NCBI RefSeq assembly: GCF_002356555.2
Contig: NZ_AP017372.2
Location: 2,148,501-2,212,500 of the forward strand
Source of the DNA: Halorhodospira halochloris
GTDB taxonomy: Bacteria; Pseudomonadota; Gammaproteobacteria; Nitrococcales; Halorhodospiraceae
Length of the DNA: 64,000 nucleotides
Reading direction: 5' to 3'
The position numbers were made by a program, and so were the translations under genes. Position 1 is the first letter of the stretch; each line of letters begins with the position of its first letter. Of the stretch, positions 18,264 through 59,432 are shown in pieces. Under the pieces are notes generated by a model that was not told the origin of the DNA, made no database searches, and saw only the letters and a list, made by a program, of their open reading frames with translations.

Positions 18264-18332
18264 TTCGATGCTCTCCTCTGCGGCCCTCTGCGATTGGAGT
18301 CTTGGAGCAGCAGAGAACAGACAGTCTAACAC

Positions 18333-26651: not shown

Positions 26652-26754
26652 CTGTTAGCGGCTTTGGAAAACCGTACAAAATTGGCGGAGGATTCAGACA
26701 TACTAATACGTTGCTGAGATCCACCGCCATGTCCTTTTCCTTACAGGTGGTAAA

Positions 26755-29032: not shown

Positions 29033-29113
29033 ATCCTTACACTCCATATGCTCGGCGAGATGAGCGCAGAAACATGCGCCTCGGGCTTAGCGCAAGGCAA
29101 TTCTCGCCGGATC

Positions 29114-29620: not shown

Positions 29621-29647
29621 CGGGGCGCTTATCCAGGTAAATTGCAA

Positions 29648-30071
29648 ACACTGGACAACGGCGCTAAACCCGAGGATACTGATAAGTGCCGTGTCGCAGG
29701 ACGCGGTGGGCGCGGCATCAGGAGGGTTGTCAGCCTCTGGTTACCTGATGTCGCGTCGCCCTTACTACTTGCCTACCGATTCTCACCCTCTTATAAGCAA
29801 ATCTCCAGTACTTTTAGCTGCTTAAGCAATAGCTCTGTGGACTTGTGGACGAGCGCTTCGCGCCGCCCTGAGCCCTACGGGCCGTGTGGACAGCCCGTGG
29901 ACAACCCTGCGGGTTGCCCACCGCCTGCCCACACTCTCAGGGCTCTCGCCCACAGGGCCCACAGAGCCAGTTACTGGTTTATAAGGAAAAGAAGGGACAA
30001 GCGAAAGCAGAAATCGACACAGAGCGTGGTAGTTAGTCTTAGCTTTTAACTACCCAGTAGATATGCTTATT
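29648..30071. other. Non-coding end of the IS with nested GC-rich hairpins
   Basis: I see no supported gene. Bases about 29830-29960 are rich in small inverted repeats built on GTGGAC / GTCCAC and GCCCTG..CAGGGC, such as AACCCTGCGGGTTG. They could fold into several hairpins near the IS end. The right inverted repeat follows at about 30072-30115. Confidence 0.5.
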
Positions 30072-30116
30072 CTTGAATCCTCCGCCAAATATGTACGGAT
30101 TTTGGCAGCCAACAAC

Positions 30117-33100: not shown

Positions 33101-33407
33101 TGGCACATGGGTGCAGCCAGAGTACCGAGTATATGGAGAGCGGCTCGCCGGTTACGGCAACCGCTGTCAGCTGTTCGGTGAGTGCCGCCGCCGATGGTTC
33201 AGCCCGCTCGGTGTCGATCACCGTGTCGAAGCGCTCGCCAAGCAGCGCGGTGTCGTCGGAGTGGCCGAGTCGCCGGCAGGCCGCCGGGTTGAGGTAGGTG
33301 AAGCGGCCACCGGAATCAAGCGCGCAGACGGCTACCGCTTGAGAATCGAGCAGCTGGTGGAGAAACCCGGCCGTGAGCTTGTTAGGTTTCGCCGAAGACC
33401 CATCCAT
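30117..33407 (-). pseudogene. 5' part of IS-split hybrid kinase (8 complete PAS plus a truncated ninth)
   Basis: The ATG at 33407 follows AGGAGGGTGGGGGG. Eight PAS-like modules are complete: [92 protein letters not shown] and [15 protein letters not shown] ninth ([17 protein letters not shown]) is cut at LLDYALTH by the IS21 element. The frame then reads into IS sequence and ends at 30039 with GCQNPYIFGGGFKNKHI. Joined to 24786-26651 it would give a 1716-residue kinase with ten PAS domains. As it stands it has sensors but no kinase. Confidence 0.88.
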
Positions 33408-33835
33408 CCCCCCACCCTCCTGTGTCATCCCACCATACTCAGCCAAAGACAGTACTCCGGCGCCGCAGAATACACCGGAGAGACTGACAGCGAGCAGAGC
33501 AGCTATCCGGGCAAAAGGGGGGGGACCCACGCACTGGTGGCTCGTCTGCTTTAACAGTCCCGTTTTAAGCTTACAACTAAAACAGCACGAAAAGCAAGTG
33601 AATTTTTATTGTTCTTTGGGCGCCTAAACCTGCCGACGAACAACACCTCAGGGCGCTAGCGTTGCAGCCCACTAGCCACCCAGTCCAACAAGCTGCTCAA
33701 GGCGCTGCGATCAAGCGGCTTGCCAAGATATGCATCGCACCCCGACTCGCTTATCAGCGACTCAACCTCGCTGTAGGCGTAGGCTGTGCATAGCGCAATC
33801 CTGGTAGGCTGCCTGCCCTGCTCATGCTCCTCGGC
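33407..33835. repeat. Duplicated block: kinase start, intergenic region and receiver end
   Basis: This block matches 8695-9343 (with the MITE removed). It includes the MDGxSAKPNK start, the intergenic sequence beginning TGTGTCATCCCACCA, and the receiver end LLDWVASGLQR. Differences are a few percent plus the G run at the other copy. It shows that a kinase-kinase junction was duplicated. Confidence 0.85.
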
Positions 33836-36121
33836 GCGGACGCTTCGGGCTACCTGATCGCCATCAAGATCCGGCATCTTTAAATCAAGCAGCAACATAT
33901 CGAAATCTTCCGCCTGCCAAGCCGCTAGGGCCTCTGTGCCACTCTGCGCGCAAACAACCTCGCAACCGAGCTTGATCAGCAGCGCCTGAGCGAGCATCAC
34001 ATTGGCCGGCTCATCATCGGCGACAAGAACATTGAGGGGGCGCCGTGCTGAACTCGCAGTTGGCTCTGCATCAGACTCGCCCGCCGCTATCGAAGACTCG
34101 CCCTCAGGGCTCGGCTCACTGGCTCTGGGCAAGGGAATGGTGAAAGCAAAGGTTGAGCCTTGCCCTGGTGTACTACTCAGGGAGAGCTCGCCATCAAGCA
34201 GATTGATAAACTCGCTGACAATCGCCAACCCCAGCCCGTAACCTTGGCTAGTGCCCCTATAGCCACCGCGATCGAAGGCAGTGAAAATCTCTTTTTGCTG
34301 CTGCTCGCTTAGACCCGGCCCGGTGTCGTGGACAGCAAAACTGACTCGGGTATCGTCTACGGCACACACCTCAAGATCGACACCGCCCTGCTGGGTGTAT
34401 TTAACGGCATTACTGAGAAGATTAGAGAGCAATTGCCCGAGTCGCGTATCATCCACCTCGACCCATCTGGGGACAGCTTCAGCTATGCTGTAGTCTAGAC
34501 TTAGGCCCTTCTCACAGGCCCGGGACCTAAGCATAGCAACCTGGTTATCTATCAGTGCAGGCAACTCGGTTGCTCGTGGGCGCAGTTCCAAACGACCGGC
34601 TTCAAGGCGGGCGAGATCGAGCAGAGTCTCAATCAGGCCGAGAAGCCGTTGTGCCCCTTGCCGGCATTGCTCCATGTACTCAGAGCGTTGCTCGGGTGAA
34701 AGTTGCGGATCATCGAGCAGCTCAAGAAAGCCCATCAAGGCGTTTAGCGGCGTGCGCAGGTCGTGGCTGACGGCGCTGAGGAAGGTGTCTTTCGCGCGTA
34801 TAGCGTCGGCGAGTTCCTGCTCAACGCGCTTTTGATCGCTGATATCGAAGGAGACACCAAGAGCGGCGATGATCTGGTCATCTGCATCCAAAATCGGATG
34901 CACCGCTAGATGCGCCATAAATGTGGTGCCGTCACGCCGTCGCATTTTGGTCTCTAAGCGAATGGGCAGGCTGCTCTGGTCGAGTTGCCGAGCCTCAACG
35001 TGCTCCTGTACATGAAGCATGGAGACGTGCTGACCGATCAGCTCACTCCGCGAATAACCGAATAACGCCTCCGTGCCACAGCTAACCTCCTGGATTACTG
35101 TGTCGCGGTCAGTCTTAATCAAGCTAACGGAGCGGGCCGCCGCGAAGATCGCCTCGAGCTCTTTTTGTCTTGTCTCAAGCTGCTCGCGTAGCTGCTGCTC
35201 GGCCTGCTCGGCGCGCCGGCGTGCGGTGATATCTACGCCTACCGCCTGGAAATGGCTCAGCGTACCGCTGTCGTCAAAAAAGGCGCGGTTGGTCCAAAGA
35301 ATCCAGTACCTCAGACCGTCTGCACCTGTCAGGCTGTTCTCGAGCCGGCCCACCGGTTGCTGCGGAGTCAAGCTCGTTAAGTGTGCTTGTGCCCGTTTCT
35401 GCTCATCAACGGGAAACAAGTCGATCCAGCGTTGCCCGATCAGTCGATCCGGCTCGGTCTGGACGTAAGCCGCCAGGGCCGGATTGGCATACGTAATGGT
35501 GGTATCGGGCAGGAAGCGCTCAATCATCAGCGGCTGGTTCTCGACCAGATCCCGGTAGTGCGCCTCGCGCTCGGCAAGTTCGCGCTGCAGAACCCGCTGC
35601 TCGGTGACATCCTGGGCCGTACCGCGTAGAAGTTGCGGATTCCCGGCAGCATCAAACTCCGCATAGCCGCGGGCCTGCACAATCCGCCGACCGCCGTCCA
35701 CACTCATGAGGTGGTGCTCAAGCTCGTAGGGATCCCCCCGGTTTAGAGTGCGCTCTATGGCCTCATAGAGCTCAGGGTGATCTTCAGGCGGCACTCTGGA
35801 GAGAAAGGTGTCCCAGTCCATGGCCGTTGCTGCCGGCTCCAAACCAATAATTTCGTAGATCTCGCTCGACCAGTGGACATCCCCAGACTTTATGTCATAG
35901 AGCCAGTGACCGAGTCGGGCAATGCGCTTAGCCTCAGTGAGTTCCAACTCGCTACGGCGCAGCGCGAACTCAGTCTCCTTGAGGGTCTGGACATCAACGT
36001 GAGTTCCCACCATGTAGGTCGGTGAGCCATCGGCGCCACGGCGCAGGGTCTGCCCCCGGCCCTGCACCCAAAGCCAGTCAGCATATGCCAGAGTGCCCTT
36101 TAGTAACCCCATGGGGCGCAC
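33656..36121 (-). CDS. N-truncated hybrid histidine kinase (3 PAS-HisKA-HATPase-REC)
   Basis: An 821-residue frame that begins inside a PAS. KGTLAYADWLWVQGRGQ joins two points of a module that in siblings are about 50 residues apart (GTLAFADWQ ... SWLWVQGRGQ). Complete PAS modules follow ([42 protein letters not shown]). HisKA has VSHDLRTPLNALMGF, HATPase DTGPGLS and GYGLGLAI, and the receiver LLLDLKMPDLDG and LGKPLD. From about 33660 to 36080 it closely matches 42040-44455. The start overlaps the end of the HD-GYP gene by 22 bases, so the missing front was probably lost by deletion and expression now depends on that gene. Confidence 0.85.
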   Translation of the reverse strand: MRPMGLLKGTLAYADWLWVQGRGQTLRRGADGSPTYMVGTHVDVQTLKETEFALRRSELELTEAKRIARLGHWLYDIKSGDVHWSSEIYEIIGLEPAATAMDWDTFLSRVPPEDHPELYEAIERTLNRGDPYELEHHLMSVDGGRRIVQARGYAEFDAAGNPQLLRGTAQDVTEQRVLQRELAEREAHYRDLVENQPLMIERFLPDTTITYANPALAAYVQTEPDRLIGQRWIDLFPVDEQKRAQAHLTSLTPQQPVGRLENSLTGADGLRYWILWTNRAFFDDSGTLSHFQAVGVDITARRRAEQAEQQLREQLETRQKELEAIFAAARSVSLIKTDRDTVIQEVSCGTEALFGYSRSELIGQHVSMLHVQEHVEARQLDQSSLPIRLETKMRRRDGTTFMAHLAVHPILDADDQIIAALGVSFDISDQKRVEQELADAIRAKDTFLSAVSHDLRTPLNALMGFLELLDDPQLSPEQRSEYMEQCRQGAQRLLGLIETLLDLARLEAGRLELRPRATELPALIDNQVAMLRSRACEKGLSLDYSIAEAVPRWVEVDDTRLGQLLSNLLSNAVKYTQQGGVDLEVCAVDDTRVSFAVHDTGPGLSEQQQKEIFTAFDRGGYRGTSQGYGLGLAIVSEFINLLDGELSLSSTPGQGSTFAFTIPLPRASEPSPEGESSIAAGESDAEPTASSARRPLNVLVADDEPANVMLAQALLIKLGCEVVCAQSGTEALAAWQAEDFDMLLLDLKMPDLDGDQVARSVRAEEHEQGRQPTRIALCTAYAYSEVESLISESGCDAYLGKPLDRSALSSLLDWVASGLQR

Positions 36122-37278
36122 TCCGGAATCGGCACCTTGATGTCTTCGGGACGATAACTACGCACGATCTCTAAATCTTCTTCTGTCAGGTTGCACTCAA
36201 AGGCACGCAGCCGCCGCCCAGCGGCACGCTGCAGAGAATAAAACCAGGGCCGTGCCCACTTCCCAGCCCTGCGGGTGACCACGCCCACGTCGCCGGTTTC
36301 CAACTCGACCACCGTTCCGGGCGGATAGATACCGAGTTCCCTTACGATATACTGAGCATAATGCGCGGGGTAAAGATGATCGGCCTCGCAGAATAGTTCG
36401 CGCAGTACCTCTTTTGGGGGGCGAGCAGACCGGTGGGCCCTAGGCGTGACCATGGCCATATAAACATTAGCGACCATGAGCAGGCCCGCGATATCGCAGA
36501 CCGAATCACCACGGATACCGCGTGGGTAACCCGATCCATCCAACCGCTCATGGTGCTCCATGACGGCGCGCAACCAGTTATCATCATCCAGCCCAGCTTC
36601 GCGCAGGATCTGCGCCGAACGCTCCGGGTGCTCCACCAGCGCCTTGCGCTGAGCCTGGCTAATGTCAGTGGACTGTTGATCGAGTACGGCGCGTAACTCA
36701 AGCATGCCAATATCTGCGCTCAGCGCCGCGCCGATAAGACTATTGCGATACCCCTCGCAGCATCCAGCGGCGCGGGCAACAATATCGGCTACGATTGCCT
36801 GGCGCAGGGGCTGCAGGATATGTTCCGGATAGGCACGGCTAAGGTGCGCCACCCCCAAAGCAGCGTCAGTGTCCAAATCGATCAACCGTTGCAGACGCTC
36901 GACGACTTGCCGAAGCCGAGGCAAAAAGTCGCGCTCACCGGCTCGGATCCTTTCGTAGTTTCGCTGAAGAGCTTGAGCACAGGCATGCAACCGCTCGTGC
37001 GGGCTTAAATCTTCCTGAACGGGATTGCCACGCCGGACAGCAGGCCCGCCAGGATGCGTAAAGCGGCTATGCCCTAATTTCGAGAGCGACCGGCCGCTCA
37101 GCTCAACCCGTCCATCGTGAAAGATGCGCCGGAGCTGATTCTGGCTAAGGATCTGCTTACCACGGCGCATGAGGAGCCGCCCTTCCTCATCGTAGACATC
37201 AAAGGTCAGGCGATCCCCAACCTGTATGTTAGCCCCGAGCCCTAAGATAGCGGGTGAATCCTCGTAGCCTGCGCGCAT
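36100..37278 (-). CDS. HD-GYP domain protein, degenerate catalytic motif
   Basis: 392 residues. The N-terminal part (VGDRLTFDVYDEEGRLLMRRG) is the conserved region of many HD-GYP proteins. The HD-GYP domain spans about 130-320: SADIGML replaces the usual HDIGK (catalytic His to Ala, Lys to Met), VEHPERSAQIL keeps its His, HHERLDGSGYPRG carries HHExxDGxGYP, and ANVYMAM replaces ADxYDAM. Active HD-GYP enzymes hydrolyse c-di-GMP with a metal centre that needs these residues, so this one is probably inactive or a c-di-GMP or protein-binding relay. The gene lies just upstream of the truncated kinase with a 22-bp overlap. Confidence 0.85.
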   Translation of the reverse strand: MRAGYEDSPAILGLGANIQVGDRLTFDVYDEEGRLLMRRGKQILSQNQLRRIFHDGRVELSGRSLSKLGHSRFTHPGGPAVRRGNPVQEDLSPHERLHACAQALQRNYERIRAGERDFLPRLRQVVERLQRLIDLDTDAALGVAHLSRAYPEHILQPLRQAIVADIVARAAGCCEGYRNSLIGAALSADIGMLELRAVLDQQSTDISQAQRKALVEHPERSAQILREAGLDDDNWLRAVMEHHERLDGSGYPRGIRGDSVCDIAGLLMVANVYMAMVTPRAHRSARPPKEVLRELFCEADHLYPAHYAQYIVRELGIYPPGTVVELETGDVGVVTRRAGKWARPWFYSLQRAAGRRLRAFECNLTEEDLEIVRSYRPEDIKVPIPECAPWGY

Positions 37279-37524: not shown

Positions 37525-40263
37525 TCAAACCCCGTATGGCCGCCCCCCAGCTTCAGCCGGATCCAAGCCGAGGCGAACTCGACTGATCAACTGCCTCAGA
37601 TGCTTTTCACGGATCGGCTTTTCCAAGAGCGCGTCAACCTCGACCAAATCGAACTCCTGCTCTATCTCTTCGCGCGAATAGGCCGTGCAGAGCACCTTCG
37701 GAACCCGCCGCACCCCCGGCCGAGCATCCTCTTCTGAGCGCAGCACTCGGGCCACCTCAATGCCGTTCAGTCCAGGCATGCTCAGATCAAGCAGAAGCAA
37801 ATCGAACACCCCTTGCCGTGCAGCTTCCAGGGCCGCATCCCCCCTCTTAACCAAGGTAACCTCGCACCCTAGGCGCTGCAGGCGCAAGGGAACCACCACC
37901 GCACTGGTCTGCTCGTCTTCGGCGACGAGCACGCGCAGCGACTGCCCAAGGGAATTCGACTCCGGCAGCTGCTCCTCGATCTTATCCTCAACCTTCTGAG
38001 CCGGTGCACAAGGCGGCAGGTGCGCGGTAAAACCGAAGGTCGAGCCTTGACCGGGGGCAGACTCGACCCAAAGGCCGTCGCCGAGACGATGAGCGAGTTC
38101 CTTTGCGATTGCCAACCCCAAGCCAGAGCCGGCAACCGGTCCATCATAACCGAGCCGATCAAAGGCATTGAACATTGTCTGCTGCTGCGCCTCGCTCAGG
38201 CCGGGGCCACTGTCCTTCACGGCGAAGCCCACCAGCTCACCGCCCTCGGCCTGAACTTCGACGCACACGCGCCCCCTGTCCGTATACTTGATAGCGTTTT
38301 CCACCAGGTTGCTCAGCACTTGGACCAGACGCGTGGGGTCGCCGATAACCCAGCCGGGGACATCTTCAGCGATCGACCACTCAAGGGTGAGTCCCTCCTC
38401 TTGCGCCCGCTGCAGCAACAACCGACATTGTTCCTCGAGCAACTGATGCAGTTCCATGGGAACCCGCTTTAGTTGGATATTACCCGATTGCAATCGCGCG
38501 ATATCCAGCAACGAGTCGATCAGCTGCGCCTGCCGCTCGCCCGCCTCCTGACAACGTTTAACAAAGTTCTGCCGTTGCTCTCTGCTTAGATCGGCGTTGC
38601 CGAGCAGTTCCACGTAACTAATCAGCGCATTTAGCGGAGTTCGCAGATCGTGACTGACGGCCCTGAGAAAGGTGGTCTTAATCCGGCTCGCATCCTCAAG
38701 CTGCTGCTGCACCGCCTTTAGATCGCTGATATCGAAAGTCACCCCCAGCGTGGCCACGACGCTGCCGTGTTCGTCCTGGATGGGGTGGATAAACAGCCGA
38801 GCTGGGAAAGACTCGCCACTCTTGCGCATCAGCCGAGTTTCGAAGTTCAGCTCCCGTTGCTCGCAAACCAAATGGCCTACCCACTTCGCAAGATCAGCTT
38901 GATCCTCCGTGATGTGCAGACAATTGACAGGCTGCCCGATCAGTTCCTCTCGGCTATATCCGAAAAGCTGCTCAGCGCCGGCACTCACGTCGATGACGCT
39001 TGATGCCAGATCTGTCTTGACCAACCCTACCGAAGTGGCCGCCTTAAAGATCCCTTCGAGTTCCTCCTGACGCTGGCGCGCTGTGGCCTGCGCCTCCTTC
39101 ATGGCCGTGATGTCCTGGATGGTACCGCGCAGGATGGGTTGCCCTTCTTCACCCTTATCACGCTGGGCAAGCTCGCGAACCCAGACTACCCGCCCGTCAG
39201 TGTGAATGATTCGGTATTCGGCCTCCGTTCGCTCACGCTGCGGCTCGCGCGCGAGCTGGGACTCAGCCACCTTGGGCCGATCTTCGGGATGGACCCGCTC
39301 TAGGAAAGCATCGAAATCCGGCGGCGATCGGCTGACATCAAAGCCGCACAGCTGGAAGGTTACGGGCGACCAGGTCAAGGTGCCCTCGTGGAGGTCGCTG
39401 ATCCAATGGCCGAGCCGCGCGATTTGCTCGGCAACCCGCAGATCGTGATTGGCTTGATAAAGCGCCTGCTCGATCTCTATCTGCGCGGTGACATCCCGCG
39501 CACTACCGACGCTGCATGCTGTGTAGCCGGCAGAAGCGAACGGTGCAGAATTGACGGCGTGCACCCAACGCACCTCGCCGTCCGGCCGCACGATCCGGTA
39601 GGTTTCATCGAATCGGACATCTCCCGCCTTGCACGCGGCCCAGGAACAAATAATCCGCTCACGATCACCCGGGTGAACCGCGTCTAGGAAGCTGTCGGGA
39701 TTCGCCATCAGCTCCTCTATGCTGCGGCCCCAGATGCGCTCATAAGAAGAGTTCACGTAGAGCATCTGGTCGCCGGCGCGCAGCCAAACCACTTCCTCCA
39801 TGGCCTCGCTGATAATCCTCGCTCGCCACTCGCTCTCTACAAGCAGCTGCTCACCGCCGGAGTAACAGGTTGCCGCCTCTGCTGCTGTGGCATCGCTGCT
39901 ACAACCCCCGTCCACAGGGTGCCCCACCGACTGGATCTCCGTAACCTCAAGATCGGGCCCGAAAAGCGCCACATCCGTCCACTGGTACGGCATTACTCCG
40001 CCATCGACCAGACAAACCTCGTGGGTATAAGTCTGGAAAGGTGCCGCTGGCCCGAGTTGCGCGAGAACCGACCACACCCGGGGACGGGCGGACACAGGCA
40101 CCCACTCGATCCAGCGCTGACCGAGCAGCGAGCCCGATCCCCCCCCGAATAGGCGCGCATAAGCTGCGTTCACGAAGGTCAGCGTCGTATCCGGTCTGAA
40201 ACGGCAGAGGGCTACATCTAAGCTTTCACCAGGATATTCTTCGTTGACGTTGAGTGTGGCCAT
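37525..40263 (-). CDS. Soluble multi-PAS hybrid histidine kinase (4 PAS-HisKA-HATPase-REC)
   Basis: About 912 residues. The PAS modules are LCRFRPDTTLTFVNAAYARL (about 15-105), SEAMEEVVWLRAGDQMLYVN (135-260), IARLGHWISDLHEGTL (275-400) and ATSVGLVKTDLASSV (415-535). HisKA has VSHDLRTPLNALISY, HATPase has NLVENAIKYTD, DSGPGLS and GSGLGLAI, and the receiver has LLLDLSMPGLNG and LEKPIR. It is more divergent from the other kinases than they are from each other. Start at 40263 (MATLNVNEE) is preferred on alignment; codons at 40302 and 40317 are also in frame. It is divergent from the Hpt and regulator genes 660 bp away, which makes it a likely partner. Confidence 0.88.
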   Translation of the reverse strand: MATLNVNEEYPGESLDVALCRFRPDTTLTFVNAAYARLFGGGSGSLLGQRWIEWVPVSARPRVWSVLAQLGPAAPFQTYTHEVCLVDGGVMPYQWTDVALFGPDLEVTEIQSVGHPVDGGCSSDATAAEAATCYSGGEQLLVESEWRARIISEAMEEVVWLRAGDQMLYVNSSYERIWGRSIEELMANPDSFLDAVHPGDRERIICSWAACKAGDVRFDETYRIVRPDGEVRWVHAVNSAPFASAGYTACSVGSARDVTAQIEIEQALYQANHDLRVAEQIARLGHWISDLHEGTLTWSPVTFQLCGFDVSRSPPDFDAFLERVHPEDRPKVAESQLAREPQRERTEAEYRIIHTDGRVVWVRELAQRDKGEEGQPILRGTIQDITAMKEAQATARQRQEELEGIFKAATSVGLVKTDLASSVIDVSAGAEQLFGYSREELIGQPVNCLHITEDQADLAKWVGHLVCEQRELNFETRLMRKSGESFPARLFIHPIQDEHGSVVATLGVTFDISDLKAVQQQLEDASRIKTTFLRAVSHDLRTPLNALISYVELLGNADLSREQRQNFVKRCQEAGERQAQLIDSLLDIARLQSGNIQLKRVPMELHQLLEEQCRLLLQRAQEEGLTLEWSIAEDVPGWVIGDPTRLVQVLSNLVENAIKYTDRGRVCVEVQAEGGELVGFAVKDSGPGLSEAQQQTMFNAFDRLGYDGPVAGSGLGLAIAKELAHRLGDGLWVESAPGQGSTFGFTAHLPPCAPAQKVEDKIEEQLPESNSLGQSLRVLVAEDEQTSAVVVPLRLQRLGCEVTLVKRGDAALEAARQGVFDLLLLDLSMPGLNGIEVARVLRSEEDARPGVRRVPKVLCTAYSREEIEQEFDLVEVDALLEKPIREKHLRQLISRVRLGLDPAEAGGRPYGV

Positions 40264-40317
40264 GGGCACAGCTACTCCGGGACGAGGACGCGAACCCACC
40301 ATAACGCCGCCGCACAA

Positions 40318-40924
40318 GGCGGCTAACTCGGCTGCGGTTGGGCAGAGGTAACCCTCACCGACCGGAGCACGCTGCAGCGGGTTTTCAATACTTTATTGTT
40401 CCAGCATCGGAGCCGCGATTTTCAGCTCAGACAGTGCACTGGGCTATATTGCAGGTAGCCTACAATGCTTCCCGCAAGTAGTATATACTATTTCATTAAA
40501 TACTATAAGGTTATTAAACTCTATACATGCATCAGTGTCACGGTAGCGCCCTCATTGAGCTTCAGCACTATGACGGCGACCATGGATTGATGTTGGAATA
40601 AGACTTGGAGTATCGTCTTTGGCTGTGGATGTGTCGGGCGAAGTTGCTTCCCTCGGTCGATTCGTCTCTTCGAAGGTACGCCATTCCGGCGCTGCTGCTA
40701 TGCTGCTTTGGTGATCGGGTCTCTCTCCTAGATTGATATCCGACAGCAGTGGGCCAGCCGATGATCGAGGGCCGGTGAAGCAAATCGAAACGGACCTCTA
40801 CCTTGTCCCATGAGCCACTGGCACTACGACTAGAGGAACCATGTACGAAAACCACAGAGATCAGGATCAGCTCGGTGCAGAGGACATAACCACCTTCAAC
40901 TAGGCTAAGCAGAGATTCGATGCC
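40318..40924. other. Divergent intergenic region between a hybrid kinase and the Hpt-regulator pair
   Basis: About 600 bp without a supported gene. It holds an AT-rich section at 40440-40530 with a perfect 12-bp palindrome at 40479-40490. Confidence 0.45.
40479..40490. promoter_or_regulatory. Perfect 12-bp palindrome, candidate operator
   Basis: TAGTATATACTA reads the same on both strands and lies in AT-rich DNA between the divergent kinase (minus) and Hpt-regulator (plus) genes. Binding by a regulator is an inference. Confidence 0.35.
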
Positions 40925-41257
40925 ATGGAAATAATCGATATCGACAGCGCGCTCGAACGGCTCGATGGGGATCGGGAGCTTTGTCGCGAGCTGCTTCTCG
41001 ATTTCTACATTGATTACTACGAGGTCGACCGGATCCTGCGCGATAGGCTTCGAGACGGTGCCACCGAAGACGCCCGGCAGCTGCTCCACAACCTGCGTGG
41101 GGCCGCGGGGAATCTGGGCATGGGAAGGCTCGAGACTGTCGCCAAAACCCTGTCGCAGCAGATCCGCCTGGGCGCGGTAGAGGTATCCGCGTTGAACAAT
41201 TTCAGCGAGGCCCTGCACCGCGTATTGAGCGAACTGGAGCACACTAAAAGACTGTGA
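40925..41257 (+). CDS. Stand-alone Hpt histidine phosphotransfer protein
   Basis: 110 residues, almost all one Hpt domain. The acceptor is His55 in LLHNLRGAAGNLGM, matching the HxLKGxxxxLG pattern. Such proteins carry phosphate from the receiver of a hybrid kinase to the receiver of a response regulator. It overlaps the following regulator by four bases (GTGA), so the two are made together. Most nearby hybrid kinases end in a receiver and lack an Hpt, which makes this the obvious shared acceptor; that link is inference. Confidence 0.85.
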   Translation: MEIIDIDSALERLDGDRELCRELLLDFYIDYYEVDRILRDRLRDGATEDARQLLHNLRGAAGNLGMGRLETVAKTLSQQIRLGAVEVSALNNFSEALHRVLSELEHTKRL

Positions 41258-41940
41258 AACCACCGCACATTCTCTTAATAGAAGACGAACGGAGCTCGCG
41301 ATCCATTTGCCTAAACGCTCTTCTTAGGGCCGAGTACCAGGCTACCGTAGCCCTAACAGCACGCGAGGGACTGCGGCTGCTGCGCAGCACTCACTTCGAC
41401 CTGGTGCTGCTCGACCTCAACTTGCCCGACGCCGACGGTCTATCCCTTGCTAGCACGCTGCACGGCAGCCATCCCGAGTTGCCGATTATTATGATGACGG
41501 TACGCACGGCAGCGGAGCAGCGCGCGGCTGGCCTCGAGGCCGGCGCAGTGGACTACTTGAGTAAGCCCTTCCATCAGACGGAGCTGATCCATCGGGTCCG
41601 TCGAGCGCTGGCCGCAGGCCCCCCGACTCCAGCCACGCAGATTACCTTCGGTCCATGGCTGCTGGAAGTAGAGCAGCGCTCACTGCACCACGCAGAAGGA
41701 TTTGAGCTTGAGCTGACCCTAGGCGAGGCGCGGCTGATCGAATTCCTGTTGCGAGCCCGGGGACGGCCGGTCAACCGCGACCAGCTCGCCGAGGCAGTGG
41801 CACGCAGCCGAGAAGGAAATCCCAAATCCGTGGACGTGCTGGTATCACGCCTGCGCCGCAAGCTGGAGGACAAAACCCGCGGTCTGCGGCACATCGTGGC
41901 CGTACCGGGTTTAGGCTACCGGATCGAAGTCGGCGAATGA
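41254..41940 (+). CDS. OmpR/PhoB-type response regulator
   Basis: 228 residues. The receiver has ILLIEDE, acceptor Asp54 in LVLLDLNLP, Thr82 in MMTVRT and Lys104 in YLSKPF. The winged-helix domain (about 128-226) has LELTLGEARLIEFLL, VDVLVSRLRRKLED and IVAVPGLGYRI. It starts with GTG overlapping the Hpt stop. It is the only DNA-binding regulator inside the kinase cluster (CpxR lies outside), so it may be its transcriptional output. Confidence 0.9.
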   Translation: MKPPHILLIEDERSSRSICLNALLRAEYQATVALTAREGLRLLRSTHFDLVLLDLNLPDADGLSLASTLHGSHPELPIIMMTVRTAAEQRAAGLEAGAVDYLSKPFHQTELIHRVRRALAAGPPTPATQITFGPWLLEVEQRSLHHAEGFELELTLGEARLIEFLLRARGRPVNRDQLAEAVARSREGNPKSVDVLVSRLRRKLEDKTRGLRHIVAVPGLGYRIEVGE

Positions 41941-42016
41941 GTCGCCGCAGTATCCACACAACGCCCCAGGCACCCCACCCGAGTACAGGCAAGACCGATT
42001 CCCGATTCTCTCAATA

Positions 42017-45000
42017 TTATTTGGCATAGCTGCTAGCCACCCAGTCCAACAAACTGCTCAAGGCGCTGCGATCAAGCGGCTTGCCAAGATACGCATCGCA
42101 ACCCGACTCGTTTATCAGCGACTCAACCTCGCTGTAGGCGTAGGCTGTGCATAGCACAATCCTGGTAGGCTGCCTGCCCTGCTCATGTTCCTCGGCGCGG
42201 ACGTTTCGGGCTACCTGATCGCCATCAAGATCCGGCATCTTTAAATCAAGCAGCAACATATCGAAATCTTCCGCCTGCCAAGCCGCTAGGGCCTCTGTGC
42301 CACTCTGCGCGCAAACAACCTCGCAACCGAGCTTGAGCAGAAGGGCCTGAGCGAGCATCACATTGGCCGGCTCATCATCGGCGACGAGAATGTTCAGTGG
42401 GCGCCGTGCTGAACTCGCAGTTGGCTCTGCATCAGACTCGCCCGCCGCTATCGAAGACTCGCCCTCAGGGCTCGGCTCACTGGCTCTGGGCAAGGGAATG
42501 GTGAAAGCAAAGGTTGAGCCTTGCCCTGGTGTACTACTCAGGGAGAGCTCGCCATCAAGCAGATTGATTAACTCGCTGACAATCGCCAACCCCAGCCCGT
42601 AACCTTGGCTAGTGCCCCTATAGCCACCACGATCGAAGGCAGTGAAAATCTCTTTTTGCTGCTGCTCAGTTAGACCCGGCCCGGTGTCGTGGACAGCAAA
42701 ACTGACTCGGGTATTGTCTACTGTTCGCACCTCAAGCTCGACACCGCCCTGCTGGGTGTATTTAACGGCATTACTGAGAAGATTAGAGAGCAATTGCCCG
42801 AGTCGCGTATCATCCACCTCGACCCATCTGGGGACAGCTTCAGCTATGCTGTAGTCTAGACTTAGGCCCTTCTCACAGGCCCGGGACCTAAGCATAGCAA
42901 CCTGGTTATCTATCAGTGCAGGCAACTCGGTTGCTCGTGGGCGCAGTTCCAAACGACCGGCTTCAAGGCGGGCGAGATCGAGCAGAGTCTCAATCAGGCC
43001 GAGAAGCCGCTGTGCTCCTTGCCGGCATTGCTCCATGTACTCAGAGCGTTGCTCGGCCGAAAGTTGCGGATCATCGAGCAGCTCAAGAAAGCCCATCAAG
43101 GCGTTTAGCGGCGTGCGCAGGTCGTGGCTGACGGCGCTGAGGAAGGTGTCTTTCGCGCGTATAGTGTCGGCGAGTTCCTGCTCAACGCGCTTTTGGGCAC
43201 TCATATCGAGACTGACGCCGAGCGTGGCCACCAACTCGCCGTGCTTATCGGTAATGGGGTGGACGGTGAACAGCGCGGGAAAACGACTACCATCCCGATG
43301 GACTAGATCCGTCTCCATGCGGATCGGCTCATGGTCCTTAAACAATCTCTCGACGTAATCGGCAAGCCGCTCAATGTCCTCTGCCGTATGCAGTAAGCTG
43401 ACGTGTCGGCCAATAAGTTCCTCGCGCGAATAACCGAACAGTACTTCTGCACCAGTACTGGCCTCTTCGATGACTGAATTGAGATCAGTCTTGATGAGAC
43501 TGACCGAGCGGGCCGCCGCGAAGATCGCCTCGAGCTCTTTTTGCCTTGTCTCAAGCTGCTCGCGTAGCTGCTGCTCGGCCTGTTCGGCGCGCCGGCGCTC
43601 GGTGATATCTACGCCTACCGATTGGAAATGGCTCAACTCCCCTTTTTCATCGAAAAAGGCCCGGTTAGTCCACATCGTCCAGAGCTGCATACCGTTCTTG
43701 CCCGGCATGCTGTTCTCGAACTGGCTAACCGGATGGCTCGGAGTGAAGCCCGCCAAGTGCGCCTCGATGTTCTCACGCTCCTCGGCAGGTAAATAATCCA
43801 GCCAGCGCTGGCCAATCAGCGCCTCCGGCTCCACACCGAGGCAATCCCCAAGGGCAGGGTTAGCGTAGGTGACCGTGGTGTCGGGCAGAAAGCGCTCAAT
43901 CATCAGCGGTTGGTTCTCTACCAGATCCCGGTAGTGCGCCTCGCGCTCGGCAAGTTCGCGCTGCAGAACCCGCTGCTCGGTGACATCCTGGGCCGTACCG
44001 CGTAGAAGTTGCGGATTCCCGGCTGCATCAAACTCCGCATAGCCACGGGCCTGCACAATCCGCCGACCGCCATCCACACTCATGAGGTGGTGCTCAAGCT
44101 CGTAGGGATCCCCCCGGTTTAGAGTGCGCTCTATGGCCTCATAGAGCTCAGGGTGATCTTCAGGCGGCACTCTGGAGAGAAAGGTGTCCCAGTCCATGGC
44201 CGTTTCCGCCGGCTCCAGACCAATAATTTCGTAGATCTCGCTCGACCAGTGGACATCCCCAGACTTTATGTCGTAGAGCCAGTGACCGAGTCGGGCTATG
44301 CGCTTAGCCTCAGTGAGTTCCAACTCGCTACGGCGCAGCGCGAACTCAGTCTCCTTGAGGGTCTGGACATCGACATGGGTACCGACCATGTAGGTCGGTG
44401 AACCATCGGCGCCACGGCGCAGGGTCTGCCCCCGGCCCTGCACCCAAAGCCAGCTACCATCGGCGCAGCGGTAGCGAAGCTCGATGGTGAACGGACTGCC
44501 TGCAGCCAAATGGCTCTCAACGATGGGTTGGACCCGCTCTAGATCCTCGGGATGGACGAATTTCTGCCAGTCGGCAAAGGTCAGAATACTCTGCTGCTCG
44601 GGATCGTAGCCGAGCATACGCCAGCACGCCTCATCCCAGTAGACCTGATCCGCCGCTAGATCCCAGTCCCAGACCCCGAAGCCGGCCGCCTCCTGGGCCA
44701 TGCGCAGGCGCTGCTCATCGGCGAACTGCGCCGATAAATCGATACAGGCCCCGATTTTACCTACCACCTCGCCGCGCTCATTGAGTAGCGGTGCGACACT
44801 CAGCTGCGCCTGAAAGCGCTCGCCGGTGCCGCGAATCAGTTCACATTCCACAGAGTAACCCTGAGCGGTGCGCTGCAATCTAGCGATACCTTCGCGCACC
44901 CGCGCATGCTCAGCCGGATCGTGGAGCATGCAGATATCACTGCCGAGCAACTCCTCACGCGAGTAGCCAAATATCCGCTCGGCGCTGCGGCTCGCCTCGC

Positions 45001-45895
45001 GAATCGTACCCTCAAGATCCGTCTCAGTTAGGGCTACATCGGGAATCGTCTCCAGGATAGCCTCAAGCCGCTGCCGGCGCGCCTCACTACGCTCCAACGC
45101 CTCGCGCTGCTCAGTGATATCCTGGATGGTCCCCTGGATGATCCACCGGCCGTTCTCGTCTTGCCAGCGATTGGCTATTTCCCGCACCCATACCACGCGC
45201 CCATTCGGGTGGACTATCCGGTATTCACCCTGGCTCTGGTCGGTGTCGGCTTTCGACTGCAGCTGATATTCGGCTACCTGATGGCGATCTTGCTCCGGTA
45301 TCCGGGCGATAAACTCTTCCCAGCCCGGCGGTTCGGCCTCGGCAGGGAAACCGCAAAGCTGATAGGTCATAGGCGACCAGATCAGCTCTCCTGTTGCAGG
45401 ATAGGAGATCCAGTGGCCCAAAGAGACTATCTCTTCAGCCCTTTGCAGCCTTTCGTGAGCTTGCTCTAGCGCCTGCTCCTGAAGTTTTTGAGCAGTAACA
45501 TCCTGTTCAAAACCAATGAGCAGACAGGGTTCACCCTGATCGTCGCGCTCGACGTGGCCACTTGAGTGCAGCCAGCACAATTGGCCATCACTGCGGTATA
45601 TCCGATATGTGAACCGCCAAGGCTGTCCGTTGGCTATGGCGGCTTGTACCTCCTCTTCTACCCATGATAGGTCTTCAGGATGCACATGCTCACGCCAAAG
45701 CGCATAGTCTGTAGCGAGGCTGCGCTCGGACTCGCTATTGTCATAACCGTATAGACTCTGGCACTGCGCATCGGCATTGACCTGCCCGGTGCACAGGTCA
45801 TATTCCCAAAAGCCGATTCCACTGACCTGCTGGAGCAGGTCCAATTTGCACTTAGCGCTTAGGCAGCCGCACTTGGAGCCTTTTTTATTTTCCAT
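42017..45895 (-). CDS. Soluble multi-PAS hybrid histidine kinase (7 PAS-HisKA-HATPase-REC)
   Basis: 1292 residues. The seven PAS modules are [83 protein letters not shown] and [12 protein letters not shown]. HisKA has VSHDLRTPLNALMGF, HATPase has NLLSNAVKYT, DTGPGLT and GYGLGLAI, and the receiver has LLLDLKMPDLDG and LGKPLD. The N-terminus has a Cys cluster (KCGCLSAKC), which could bind metal or sense redox. Its 3' 2.4 kb is nearly identical to the truncated kinase at 33656, and it probably resembles what that gene was before truncation. It is divergent from the kinase at 46360. Confidence 0.92.
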   Translation of the reverse strand: MENKKGSKCGCLSAKCKLDLLQQVSGIGFWEYDLCTGQVNADAQCQSLYGYDNSESERSLATDYALWREHVHPEDLSWVEEEVQAAIANGQPWRFTYRIYRSDGQLCWLHSSGHVERDDQGEPCLLIGFEQDVTAQKLQEQALEQAHERLQRAEEIVSLGHWISYPATGELIWSPMTYQLCGFPAEAEPPGWEEFIARIPEQDRHQVAEYQLQSKADTDQSQGEYRIVHPNGRVVWVREIANRWQDENGRWIIQGTIQDITEQREALERSEARRQRLEAILETIPDVALTETDLEGTIREASRSAERIFGYSREELLGSDICMLHDPAEHARVREGIARLQRTAQGYSVECELIRGTGERFQAQLSVAPLLNERGEVVGKIGACIDLSAQFADEQRLRMAQEAAGFGVWDWDLAADQVYWDEACWRMLGYDPEQQSILTFADWQKFVHPEDLERVQPIVESHLAAGSPFTIELRYRCADGSWLWVQGRGQTLRRGADGSPTYMVGTHVDVQTLKETEFALRRSELELTEAKRIARLGHWLYDIKSGDVHWSSEIYEIIGLEPAETAMDWDTFLSRVPPEDHPELYEAIERTLNRGDPYELEHHLMSVDGGRRIVQARGYAEFDAAGNPQLLRGTAQDVTEQRVLQRELAEREAHYRDLVENQPLMIERFLPDTTVTYANPALGDCLGVEPEALIGQRWLDYLPAEERENIEAHLAGFTPSHPVSQFENSMPGKNGMQLWTMWTNRAFFDEKGELSHFQSVGVDITERRRAEQAEQQLREQLETRQKELEAIFAAARSVSLIKTDLNSVIEEASTGAEVLFGYSREELIGRHVSLLHTAEDIERLADYVERLFKDHEPIRMETDLVHRDGSRFPALFTVHPITDKHGELVATLGVSLDMSAQKRVEQELADTIRAKDTFLSAVSHDLRTPLNALMGFLELLDDPQLSAEQRSEYMEQCRQGAQRLLGLIETLLDLARLEAGRLELRPRATELPALIDNQVAMLRSRACEKGLSLDYSIAEAVPRWVEVDDTRLGQLLSNLLSNAVKYTQQGGVELEVRTVDNTRVSFAVHDTGPGLTEQQQKEIFTAFDRGGYRGTSQGYGLGLAIVSELINLLDGELSLSSTPGQGSTFAFTIPLPRASEPSPEGESSIAAGESDAEPTASSARRPLNILVADDEPANVMLAQALLLKLGCEVVCAQSGTEALAAWQAEDFDMLLLDLKMPDLDGDQVARNVRAEEHEQGRQPTRIVLCTAYAYSEVESLINESGCDAYLGKPLDRSALSSLLDWVASSYAK

Positions 45896-46359
45896 GAGCT
45901 TAAGACCTCTCCGGGCCTGTATTTGGACCTTACGCTGTCAGCGCAAAGACTCGGGGAGTGACTGAGCAGATCCTGCGAGTAGGAGACCTGGTGATGGGTG
46001 ATGTTTGCAGGCCTATATATTGAAATAGCATGCAATTACGCCCCAACAAAAAACCCTACATGATATGCAGAATATGCATTTCTGCAGCGCGAGTCTAGCC
46101 TCCTTAGCTACCACTGCTGCATTTCCGCGCAATATAGCAGCCAGACCAGAAACGGGTGCGCGTTAACGCCACTTAAGCTCTTTTTTTGTGGTGATACTAT
46201 CGTAGCTACAGCATAAGCCGTTATAAACAAAGAATTATTTTTGATGATAAGCAATTGTTAGAGACTGCCTATCTGCGCAGCTAAAGGGGCTTGACGTAGT
46301 TAAGCCTGCGAAGTAGCGTTCGGTCGATTTTTTTCAGGAATTGAGGCGGGGGGGGATGT
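45896..46359. other. AT-rich divergent promoter region between two hybrid kinases
   Basis: About 460 bp, no gene seen. It should hold promoters for both kinases. It includes the inverted repeat at 46066-46086 and an eight-G run at 46348-46355 directly before the plus-strand start. Confidence 0.45.
46066..46086. promoter_or_regulatory. 21-bp inverted repeat, candidate operator
   Basis: TGCAGAA, a 7-base centre (TATGCAT) and TTCTGCA form a perfect dyad in the region between the divergent kinases. Its use as a regulator site is inference. Confidence 0.35.
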
Positions 46360-49300
46360 ATGGGTCGCGATAAAGTCGAGCAACGCACGTCTGATTTTTC
46401 CCAAAACTTGCTCGACAAACTGCCTGTAGCCGTCTGCAGCCTCGATTCAGCAGGCTGCTTCACCTACCTCAACACCGCCGCTTGTCAGCTGCTCGGCTAC
46501 CCCGATGAGAGTGCGCTGCTCGGTGTAAACTTTAGCGCTGTAATCGATGCCGAGCGCACTCCACTGCCAGCAGATACAGTCACGGAGCGATTAGTTGCGG
46601 CAACCGACGAACCGCTATGCGCTGACACGACGCTATGGCTGCAGCCGCGTGTAGGCGCTGCGCTCCCGGTAGAGGTTGAGGTGGCAGCGCTGCGTAGCGC
46701 AGAGACAGCCGCGGGCGAAGTGGCGGTTACACTGCGCGAGTGCAGAACGGTGCAGGATATAACCGAACAGCGCGCTCGCGAGCGTTTCCAGCAGCAGCTG
46801 GTGGCGATCCTTGATAGCACCTCAGACCTCGTCACTCTCCACGGCAGCGATGGGAGTCTGATCTACATCAATGAAGCTCTTAGGGCGCGTTTTGGCCTGC
46901 AGCAATTACCGTCCTGCCCTTCCGTTGAAGAGGCGATCCGCCGCCGCCATCCGCCTTGGGCTGCCGACCTGCTTTTGAACGAAGGGCTGCCGACAGCCCG
47001 GCGCGAAGGTCTATGGCAGGGGCAGACGGCCTTTTTAGATGCCGATGGCCAAGAGATCCCTGCCTCTCAGGTGATCATCGGTCATCGCGACTCCTCCGGC
47101 GAAGTCGTTCAACTATCAACGATCATCCGCGATATCTCCGATCTGAAGCGCACTCAGCAGGAGGCCGTAGAGAGCGAGCAGCGTTTCCGCCTGATCGCCG
47201 AGCATACCCGCGATGTTTTCTGGTTGCGTTCTGAGCAAAAGGCGCTCTATGTAAACCCCGCCTATGAGCGAATCTGGGGACAGACCCGAGAGCACTTCTA
47301 TGCCAACCCCAACAGTTTTCTTGAGAGCGTTCATCCGGAGGATCGTAAAGAGGTTGAGACTGCAATAAACCAGGCGATAGCGGCTGGCGAAGAGATTAAT
47401 ATCCGCTACCGGATTGTCCGTCCCGATGGCGATGTGCGCTGGATGGAGGCACGCAGCTCCCCCTTCAAGATCAGCGGCACAGAGGAAACGCTACGTGCCG
47501 GTGTTGCCCGCGATGTCACCGATGAAGCCCTGGCTATGAGGCGGCTCGAGCAGCTGGTGGCGATACTCGATAATACTTCGGACATCGTCGCATTACACGG
47601 CGAAGATGGGACGCTGCTTTACCTGAACGCCGCTGGCAGGGCAAAAGCCGGCATTGATAACCAGGCTGTCGACGGGATGTTGGGTATTGCGGATGATGGC
47701 TCAATGCCGCCCCTGAGTCTTGAAGAAGCGATTAGTCGGTTCCATCCACCGTGGGCGGCCGATCTGCTCCTGAACGAAGGTCTACCGACTGTCCGGCGTG
47801 AAGGGCTGTGGCAAGGCGAGACGGCGATCCTCAAGGCAGATGGGACACAGGCCCCGACCTCACAAGTGCTGATCGGCCATCGCAATAGCTACGGTGAGTT
47901 AACCTATATCTCCACAATACTGCGAGATATCTCTGATCAGAAAAAGGCTCAGCAGGAAGTGGCCGAGAGCGAGAGGCGTTTTCGGCTGATTGCCGAGAAT
48001 ATCCGCGATGCCTTTTGGCTGCGCACCGATGCCCAAACCCTATACGTCAATCCCGCCTATGAGCGAATCTGGGGACAGCCGGTAGAGAGCTTCTACGCCA
48101 ATCCCAAAGCCTTTTTGGAGAGTATCCACCCGGAAGATCGTTATGGGGTTGAGAAGGCGCTGGATCAGGCGATAAGTGAGCGCGAAGAGTTCAACGCCTT
48201 ATTCCGGATAATCCGCTCCAATAGTGAAGTTCGCTGGATTCAAATGCACAGCCTGCCGGTGCCAGGCCGTGAAAGTGAGGGCATGCGCGCCGGCATTGCC
48301 CGCGATGTGACCGAGCGTGAACAGGCATTAATCCAGCTTCGCGAGGCCAACCGGACTAAAAGTGAGTTTTTGAACGCCGTCAGCCACGACCTGCGCACCC
48401 CGCTTAACGCCATCATCGGCTTTACTGATCTGCTCGCTGACTCAGAACTCGACGCTCATCAAAGGGAGCAGGTTAAGCTATGCCAGGCCGCAGGACGCAC
48501 TCTTTTGGGGCTGATAGATACATTGCTCGATCTATCGCGCCTGAAGGCCGGGCGCATGACGCTGCAAAAAGAGGCTTTTCTGCTGCGTAAATTTCTCGCA
48601 GAGAGGATGCCGATGTTGTCTCAGCAGGCCGAGGATAAGGGTCTGAATCTGCAATGCTCAGTCGATAATGGCCTGCCGGATAGGCTTCAGGGAGATACAA
48701 CCCGCCTCTCCCAGGTGCTATTCAATCTTGTCAGCAACGCCATCAAGTTTACCGACAGCGGCTACGTCCGGGTGCATTTCTCCCGATACGATTCAAAGAG
48801 ATTACAAGTCTCGGTCCAGGATAATGGTCCCGGCATTCCGGATGAGTTTCAGGAGCGGATCTTTGAGCCGTTTGATCGAGGCACCGATGCAATCAAGCAT
48901 CTGCAAGGCAGCGGTCTGGGTCTGGCTATTAGTCGGCAGCTGGTTAATTTAATGGGTGGGGAAATATGGCTTCACAGCACCCCCGGCCAAGGATCGACCT
49001 TTTTCTTTACCGCCGAGCTTCCCGAGGATGAATCTGAGCCCGCAGTTGATCCTGCTCAAACTGCACCTGAATCTGCCAACGGAGCTCCTGCTGATAGGGA
49101 GAATGTTGCTGGCACGCGGGTGCTGGTCGCCGAGGATGAGCCGACTAATATCCTGCTGATCCAGGCGTTACTAGAGCGCTGCGGGGCGGAGGCCACAGTG
49201 GCCGAAAATGGTCAGGAGGCGCTTGATATATGGCAGCAGGCTGAGCAGGAGTTCGATTTGATCCTGCTCGATATGCAGATGCCGATACTCGATGGAGCAC

Positions 49301-49497
49301 AGACGGTAAAATCACTTCGTGAAGCTGAAGTAGCACAAAACCGAGTCTATACGCCGGTAGCCATGCTCTCTGCGCACGCCAGCACAGAGGTTCGTGAGCA
49401 GTGTTTGCAAAGCGGTGCCGATACCTATATGACGAAGCCAGTACGCTTAGATTCGCTTACTGATCTGCTCAGTTGGGCAAAGCGCAGGCAGAGATAA
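46360..49497 (+). CDS. Soluble multi-PAS hybrid histidine kinase with duplicated PAS pair
   Basis: 1045 residues. PAS1 is LPVAVCSLDSAGCF. PAS2-PAS3 (STSDLVTLHGSDGS; RFRLIAEHTRDVFWLRSEQ) and PAS4-PAS5 (NTSDIVALHGEDGT; RFRLIAENIRDAFWLRTDA) are an internal duplication of a two-PAS unit that includes the segment ADLLLNEGLPT. HisKA has VSHDLRTPLNAIIGF, HATPase has NLVSNAIKFTD and GSGLGLAI, and the receiver has LLDMQMPILDG and MTKPVRLD. The ATG at 46360 follows GAGGC plus eight G; another ATG four bases earlier is out of frame. It is the intact relative of the broken kinase at 19389-21768 and the only hybrid kinase here on the plus strand. Confidence 0.92.
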   Translation: MGRDKVEQRTSDFSQNLLDKLPVAVCSLDSAGCFTYLNTAACQLLGYPDESALLGVNFSAVIDAERTPLPADTVTERLVAATDEPLCADTTLWLQPRVGAALPVEVEVAALRSAETAAGEVAVTLRECRTVQDITEQRARERFQQQLVAILDSTSDLVTLHGSDGSLIYINEALRARFGLQQLPSCPSVEEAIRRRHPPWAADLLLNEGLPTARREGLWQGQTAFLDADGQEIPASQVIIGHRDSSGEVVQLSTIIRDISDLKRTQQEAVESEQRFRLIAEHTRDVFWLRSEQKALYVNPAYERIWGQTREHFYANPNSFLESVHPEDRKEVETAINQAIAAGEEINIRYRIVRPDGDVRWMEARSSPFKISGTEETLRAGVARDVTDEALAMRRLEQLVAILDNTSDIVALHGEDGTLLYLNAAGRAKAGIDNQAVDGMLGIADDGSMPPLSLEEAISRFHPPWAADLLLNEGLPTVRREGLWQGETAILKADGTQAPTSQVLIGHRNSYGELTYISTILRDISDQKKAQQEVAESERRFRLIAENIRDAFWLRTDAQTLYVNPAYERIWGQPVESFYANPKAFLESIHPEDRYGVEKALDQAISEREEFNALFRIIRSNSEVRWIQMHSLPVPGRESEGMRAGIARDVTEREQALIQLREANRTKSEFLNAVSHDLRTPLNAIIGFTDLLADSELDAHQREQVKLCQAAGRTLLGLIDTLLDLSRLKAGRMTLQKEAFLLRKFLAERMPMLSQQAEDKGLNLQCSVDNGLPDRLQGDTTRLSQVLFNLVSNAIKFTDSGYVRVHFSRYDSKRLQVSVQDNGPGIPDEFQERIFEPFDRGTDAIKHLQGSGLGLAISRQLVNLMGGEIWLHSTPGQGSTFFFTAELPEDESEPAVDPAQTAPESANGAPADRENVAGTRVLVAEDEPTNILLIQALLERCGAEATVAENGQEALDIWQQAEQEFDLILLDMQMPILDGAQTVKSLREAEVAQNRVYTPVAMLSAHASTEVREQCLQSGADTYMTKPVRLDSLTDLLSWAKRRQR

Positions 49498-49527
49498 CGC
49501 CGAAAGGTGAAAACATAACCAATACGG

Positions 49528-49679
49528 GGGAACCTCTAAAAACTTCGCCGGCGCCACCATCCGCCCCGGTGTGGAGGTCTTGACGCCAGGGATGGCGCCA
49601 TGAAGCCTCCAGGGATGGATTCACGGCGTCCTCCCCACCGGGGCTGATGGTGGCGCCAGCGAAGTTTTTAGAGGCACCC
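49528..49679. mobile_element. 152-bp palindromic MITE-like element, copy 2
   Basis: It has the same arms (CTAAAAACTTCGCCGGCGCC) and core as copy 1, with core orientation as copies 3 and 4. Flanks are a perfect 4-bp direct repeat ACGG (49524-49527 and 49680-49683). It lies between the convergent ends of the hybrid kinase and cpxA, where its hairpin could end transcription from both sides. Confidence 0.85.
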
Positions 49680-49763
49680 ACGGGGGATAGAGATAGAAAA
49701 ATTGAATTTTCCATGCTTCTCGAAGATGCCGTTATTCAAGCTCATTGGCTGAGCACCGAAGGC

Positions 49764-51130: not shown

Positions 51131-51422
51131 TTCTTTCAAGAACTTCTAGCTCGAAGCCATTTTGTTTCCCGGTTCGGAGGTCATGGCAACAGGGATGGCA
51201 CCATAAAAACTCTAGGGTGCCTATAAAAACTTCGCCGGCGCCACCACCCGCCCCGGTGTGGAGGTCTTGGCGCCAGGGATGGCGCCATGAAGCCTCCAGG
51301 GATGGATTCACGGCGTCCTCCACACCGGGGCGGGTGGTGGCGCCGGCGAAGTTTTAGAGGTGCCCTCTAGGGATGGATTCACGGCGTCCTCCACACCAGG
51401 ACAGTTGAATAGCACCGTAGAA
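51131..51422. mobile_element. Older, degenerate MITE copy split by copy 3
   Basis: Sequence at about 51131-51209 and 51370-51422 forms one decayed element once copy 3 is removed. GGAGGTCATGGCAACAGGG precedes the insertion and GGGATGGATTCACGGCGTCC follows it, in the same order as in intact copies. Its outer arms resemble copy 4 rather than copy 3. End points are approximate. Confidence 0.55.
51214..51365. mobile_element. 152-bp palindromic MITE-like element, copy 3 (nested)
   Basis: Begins GGGTGCCTATAAAAACTTCG and ends in the matching inverted arm. Flanks are a perfect 4-bp duplicate TCTA (51210-51213 and 51366-51369). It inserted into the core of an older copy between cpxR and cpxA. Confidence 0.9.
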
Positions 51423-59204: not shown

Positions 59205-59432
59205 GCTGGCTACTCCTGCCCGGAACTCGGACAGAGGGCGAATATCTTCATCGGCACGGAGTCTGCGGAAATAAACATAACTGTTGACCCACAAGACGCG
59301 GCCCGCTTGTCCTGCACCGAGTAAATACGGAAACTTATCAATGCGTGAGGTTTATTAACCCAAACCACATGCATCAAGGTTTTTATCGGCAAGGGAGTGC
59401 GACCACCCAAAAGCCACTGGAGCGAGGATTTC

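Follow-up and report, generated by a model that had tools for sequence, protein, structure and literature searches.

A stand-alone Hpt protein and an OmpR-type response regulator are encoded by overlapping genes inside an array of hybrid kinases. The best reading of the genome comparisons is that this pair would have been added in this species to an older output, common to the genus, that runs from an HptB-like Hpt to an HsbR-like regulator; the kinases are thus most likely split between the two stand-alone Hpts, or share them. All of the sensors may report to the pair, but the older relay protein is an equally good candidate. The window, as the whole stretch analysed is called here, comprises 64,000 nucleotides (C1:2148501-2212500) of a genome that consists of a single contig of 2,834,560 bases (genome label G000).

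The hybrid kinase array

The features of the array are collected in Table 1. An earlier note on this DNA had stated that nearly all of its hybrid kinases end in a receiver with no Hpt, and this holds for nine of the ten in the window, HK4 being the exception and two of the nine (HK5 and HK6) being broken. By arithmetic performed after the fact, the array spans 49 kb, or 1.7% of the genome, with the Hpt and OmpR genes inside it.

Table 1. Coordinates of kinases, relay genes and repeated sequences in the window.
Feature	Position	Strand	Description
HK1	361-3195	-	Hybrid kinase, PAS-HisKA-HATPase-REC, without Hpt
HK2	5492-8740	-	Hybrid kinase without Hpt
HK3	9361-12894	-	Hybrid kinase with additional N-terminal REC, without Hpt
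HK4	12891-18332	-	Hybrid kinase with C-terminal REC-REC-Hpt (own Hpt)
HK5	19389-21768	-	Hybrid kinase in two overlapping frames (19389-20789, 20683-21768), without Hpt
HK6	24786-33530	-	Kinase half 24786-26468, sensor (PAS) half 30039-33530, without Hpt
HK7	33656-36121	-	Hybrid kinase without Hpt; DNA 89% identical to 3' part of HK9
HK8	37525-40317	-	Hybrid kinase without Hpt; upstream of the pair, divergent
Stand-alone Hpt	40925-41257	+	110 aa, phospho-acceptor His55; Pfam PF01627, BarA Hpt 3iqt match, AlphaFold2 bundle
OmpR/PhoB-type response regulator	41254-41940	+	228 aa; Response_reg 93 bits, Trans_reg_C 64 bits
HK9	42017-45895	-	Hybrid kinase without Hpt; downstream of the pair, convergent
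HK10	46360-49497	+	Hybrid kinase without Hpt
PAS block shared by HK3 and HK4	10522-11329 and 16329-17136		
PAS block shared by HK2 and HK6	7095-8277 and 30283-31465		
Dispersed repeat of ~150 bases	9141-9294, 49527-49680, 51214-51372, 56586-56740		Copies in the window

HK5 is probably a decaying kinase, and an apparent join between two different PAS domains is seen within it. The two parts of HK6, which was presumably a single gene once, are separated by an IS21-type element (transposase and IstB) at about 26653-30117; another copy of this element, 99.3% identical, is found at L129 10313-13771. The array also encodes a GGDEF-EAL protein (3288-5387) and an HD-domain (HD_5) protein (36100-37278) whose gene overlaps HK7, each a possible further output. 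The repeat listed in Table 1 is dispersed over many intergenic places of the genome with 93-98% identity. A YhgA-like (Transposase_31) gene lies at 23299-24333, a seemingly damaged relative of it is found near 14063-15124 in L121, and two adjoining GmrSD-type restriction genes occupy 59397-63675, one encoding GmrSD_N with DUF7834 and the other GmrSD_N and GmrSD_C.

The Hpt and OmpR genes

The central observation of the earlier note, a stand-alone Hpt with His55 whose gene overlaps that of an OmpR-type regulator in the middle of the cluster, is exact with respect to coordinates, residue and overlap. The OmpR gene starts inside the hpt stop codon by means of a four-base overlap (GTGA), and the pair is placed between HK8 and HK9. 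The Hpt protein belongs to the Pfam Hpt family with a score of 29.4 bits (cut-off 24.6, E 9.9e-7) and presents His55 within the motif HNLRGAAGNLG. AlphaFold2, run with the single sequence, predicted a helical bundle with a pLDDT of 80.5 for the best model and 68 to 48 for the other four. The BarA Hpt domain (3iqt) was the top fold match of the model in the PDB (E 0.019, with no match passing E 0.001) and also the best match by sequence (E 9.8e-5), followed by 7c1i (E 0.041). In a tree of Hpt domains, the window Hpt is found on a long branch (2.16). A frame on the opposite strand (40568-41263) was judged to be spurious.

With a receiver and a Trans_reg_C winged helix, the second protein is a member of the OmpR/PhoB family, and its acid pair, Asp, Thr, Tyr and Lys are all present. 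The G+C content by codon position, 0.68/0.36/0.72 for the hpt gene and 0.72/0.45/0.69 for the OmpR gene, follows the pattern of the neighbouring genes. Scans for promoters (40280-42060), terminators and repeats gave no promoter-like match, a weak negative, and nothing usable beyond chance. The two genes may, with some reservation, be considered a translationally coupled relay output.

Sensor exchange and duplication

Two pairs of kinases share PAS blocks that are 92-97% identical on cores that are 41-45% identical, a pattern in the alignments that points to recent exchange of sensors between kinases. The first block is common to HK3 and HK4 (808 bases, 97.0% DNA identity; cores 41% identical) and the second to HK2 and the sensor half of HK6 (1,184 bases, 91.6% DNA identity; cores 45% identical). 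It had been proposed in the earlier note that convergence on one regulator would allow sensors to be shuffled without loss of output. The shuffling itself stands, since blocks have moved between kinases, but the exchange also extended to HK4, a kinase with an Hpt of its own. Shuffling therefore proceeds without the need of a shared Hpt, and sensors have crossed output types.

The divergent HK9-HK10 pair (window 42004-49520) is duplicated 0.84 Mb away (C1:1339-1346 kb; L121 5336-12095), with an identity of 94.8% over 5,485 aligned columns and 95.2% in a second block. The match ends at window position 42004, beside the OmpR gene, where the copy is instead flanked by a short-chain dehydrogenase. 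The Hpt and OmpR genes are absent from the copy, and its HK10 has a shorter sensor part. The duplicated kinases could reach the window Hpt only in trans.

A second stand-alone Hpt in the genome

Pfam matches over the cut-offs number 9 for Hpt, 54 for receiver and 31 for HisKA in the whole genome. When our own profiles were applied to stop-to-stop frames at all Pfam-matched places, 24 hybrid kinases were counted, 20 without an Hpt (9 in the window and 11 elsewhere) and 4 with one. The acid pair, Asp, Thr/Ser and Lys are kept in the receivers of all 20 that lack an Hpt. Only two of the nine Hpt domains over the cut-off stand alone, the window Hpt and the product of L138 6380-6823; three further Hpts are part of CheA-like proteins by our own reading, one of them without a Pfam check. 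Hpt-less hybrids consequently outnumber stand-alone Hpts by 20 to 2, as would be expected of a LuxU-like hub.

The best PDB match of the second stand-alone Hpt is Pseudomonas HptB (7c1i, E 3.9e-6), which identifies it as HptB-like. An HptB ortholog should match HptB best and adjoin hsbA/hsbR, a description that suits the HptB-like protein; the window Hpt was rejected as an HptB ortholog given its best match to BarA and an identity of only 26% to the HptB-like protein. The genome also encodes a protein with the layout REC-SpoIIE-HATPase, which we take to be the architecture of HsbR, and a STAS protein precedes it. The HptB-like gene lies outside the array, about 12-14 kb from the hsbA/hsbR-like genes; in genome G009, the HptB-like Hpt, the STAS protein (78% identical to that studied here) and the HsbR-like regulator are encoded side by side. 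Relatives of the HptB-like Hpt were detected by BLAST in seven of the eight other genus genomes (G002, G003, G004, G005, G007, G009 and, as a contig-end piece, G006) and were absent by BLAST from G008, a genome that is 83% complete. An HsbR-like protein is present at E 1e-30 in 12/12 family genomes (in G010 only in pieces), including 8/8 other genomes of the genus.

The proposal that a single Hpt-OmpR pair serves as the hub is not borne out by this inventory. A single hub is doubtful because the second stand-alone Hpt resembles HptB and is accompanied in the genome by proteins like HsbR and HsbA; with its HsbR-like regulator, this Hpt is conserved in the genus, unlike the window pair. Further evidence against it comes from relatives that have the kinase family without the pair, and from the HK9-HK10 duplicate, which also lacks it.

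In the mechanism preferred here, the receivers of the Hpt-less hybrid kinases would pass phosphate to His55 of the window Hpt, which would donate it to the Asp of the DNA-binding OmpR-type regulator, while the HptB-like Hpt would be charged by the same or by other kinases. Support for this explanation comes from the order of the genes, the active sites and known precedents, and it is put forward tentatively as the best of those considered. Its individual steps differ in strength: transfer from the window Hpt to the OmpR protein is very probable, and charging of the Hpt by more than one kinase of the array is possible and somewhat doubtful. If the mechanism is correct, sensors would be freely recombinable because their receivers share one relay, and outputs could be swapped by the gain of one small gene.

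Alternatively, the HptB-like Hpt and its HsbA/HsbR-like partner switch, as in Pseudomonas, could be where the Hpt-less hybrids mainly deliver their phosphate, leaving the window pair to act for one kinase, or for a small number located outside the array. This is rather doubtful; in its favour are the match to 7c1i, the conservation of both proteins, the gene adjacency in G009 and the presence of the same kinase family in genomes with an HptB-like Hpt. HptB of P. aeruginosa is a many-kinase hub activated by three proposed orphan hybrids that are encoded elsewhere (PMC5085249). In addition, the array receivers match the receiver of 7c1j (E 3.5e-14 and 1.7e-16), which is probably that of PA1611, an HptB donor, since HptB and the PA1611 receiver are reported together in PMC7467158. 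However, the array receivers match other hybrid receivers as well as they match 7c1j, or better, and the HptB-like gene is removed both from the array and from its presumed partner genes.

Spread of the pair and of the kinase family

With the window Hpt as query, matches were obtained in 10/12 family genomes (its own included) at E 0.01 and in 23/54 order genomes at E 0.001, none above 39% identity, and the majority are Hpt domains of long kinases. No close relative was found in the 53 other order genomes at the sensitivity of BLAST. Short-frame Hpt matches in G050, G041, G038, G051, G007, G003 and G031 (the last at a contig end) have no adjoining OmpR-type regulator. At the level of the class, matches at E 2e-6 were obtained in 38 of 369 genomes with a best identity of 38%, and an Hpt-OmpR pair was present in none of the eight match places inspected. 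When the 12 family genomes were searched with the Pfam Hpt profile, the only other comparable candidate in the genus was a 150-aa frame in G003 with a score below the cut-off. Weak matches (30-39% identity) occur in 10 of 72,556 plasmid records.

The regulator was approached in the same manner. The best 80 of 280 related OmpR loci were scanned, with an identity of 29-41% for nearly all, and a readable regulator frame was present in 79. A kinase frame lies within 500 bp of the regulator in 71 of these 79 loci, while the window OmpR gene lacks a dedicated partner kinase next to it; a stand-alone Hpt adjoins the regulator in none of the 79, as judged with our own Hpt profile and BLAST sensitivity.

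The kinases are far more widespread. At E 1e-45, the HK9 core finds 3 to 17 matches in every one of the 11 other genomes of the family, whereas no close relative of the Hpt was found in them; the Hpt is thus not kept wherever the kinase family is. The genus offers a natural comparison, with the same kinase family found with and without the pair and with two competing stand-alone Hpts in one cell. It is also conceivable, if unlikely, that the new Hpt-OmpR pair captured a large, pre-existing family of shuffling kinases that reports elsewhere in the genus to the HptB/HsbR switch. Should this rewiring have occurred in nature, an output in gene expression would have been added to a whole set of sensors through the gain of one relay gene.

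Receiver comparisons

Receivers were compared over helix alpha1, the docking interface and strand beta5 using domains cut with our own HMMs rather than Pfam boundaries. By similarity over alpha1 and the loop, HsbR ranked first at the median for the array receivers and OmpR ranked 18th of 31 at alpha1. In a control with five E. coli relay receivers, however, the true partners ranked only 11-14 of 31 by alpha1 and 11-26 by the wider interface, and HsbR took one of the three highest ranks for four of these receivers. The likeness of the array receivers to HsbR at alpha1 is therefore nonspecific and does not speak for the HptB-like Hpt as the main acceptor.

Interface positions are more conserved than the rest of the domain among the array receivers (0.57 vs 0.41, in 34/36 pairs after two pairs at 85% identity or more were dropped). 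A similar difference applies to Hpt-less hybrids outside the array (0.43 vs 0.28, 9/11, with both the HK9 and HK10 copies left out) and to the genome's Hpt-fused receivers (0.61 vs 0.50), and its regulators gave 0.20 vs 0.24. Conservation of the interface was rejected as a mark of a common Hpt because the effect is also seen in E. coli among receivers that have five different partners (0.36 vs 0.26) and because the same face is the docking site for the DHp of the kinase itself. In HK8, the kinase nearest the pair, the receiver contact residues deviate more than in any other kinase of the array. This counts against the preferred mechanism, as does the outcome that none of the sequence comparisons assigned a receiver to the window Hpt.

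A further possibility is that the C-terminal receivers are end points that act back on the kinase to which they belong or serve as a phosphate sink, with no need of an Hpt. An aromatic residue on beta5, which response regulators use for switching, is kept in most Hpt-less hybrid receivers, namely 16/20 in this genome and 22/27 among relatives (38/47 in total, the rows being related by descent). It is found in 1/4 of the genome's Hpt-fused receivers, 1/5 of the E. coli relay hybrids and 10/47 among relatives (12/56 in total, again with related rows), and may more generally mark receivers that function with no Hpt fused to them. As a sign of end points it was rejected: the presumed PA1611 receiver (7c1j), a donor to a stand-alone Hpt, has a Tyr at this position, and the residue cannot tell receivers that are end points from those that take part in a relay. 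A Cys occupies the position in RcsC, which is also a trans donor. The end-point explanation is improbable. That the pair is an orphan in decay or out of use is very improbable, for despite the long Hpt branch, the lack of close relatives, two broken kinases nearby and the negative promoter scan, both frames are open, the key residues are complete and the codon-position composition is normal.

Comparison with known systems

The accessible literature on Halorhodospira, searched for hybrid histidine kinases and two-component systems, yielded only papers whose titles and abstracts concern other topics. No description of a stand-alone Hpt/OmpR pair in a cluster of orphan hybrids was found either, most subscription papers being beyond the reach of the search. 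Two points of background set the window pair apart from the systems that it resembles: LuxO of Vibrio is a regulator of the NtrC type, not the OmpR type, and the hptA and arcA genes of Shewanella are not adjacent.

Many-to-one Hpt hubs and stand-alone Hpts that feed an OmpR-type regulator are both already known. In Vibrio, one stand-alone Hpt, LuxU, receives phosphate from four hybrid kinases and stands between them and one DNA-binding regulator, LuxO; convergence is proven for LuxU, whereas it is only possible for the window Hpt (PMC4398556). In the HptB-HsbR-HsbA system of Pseudomonas, several Hpt-less hybrids also feed a stand-alone Hpt, but the output is a phosphatase/kinase partner switch, a role that fits the other Hpt of this genome (PMC5085249). 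HptA of Shewanella is a separate Hpt that connects a hybrid kinase to the OmpR-type regulator ArcA, although one kinase, ArcS, is described (PMC8552667). Lastly, in fungi whose hybrid kinases have a single HPt, many receivers likewise face one HPt; unlike the window pair, this arrangement is eukaryotic with few hybrids per HPt, and transfer from several receivers is proven in vitro (PMC11224324).
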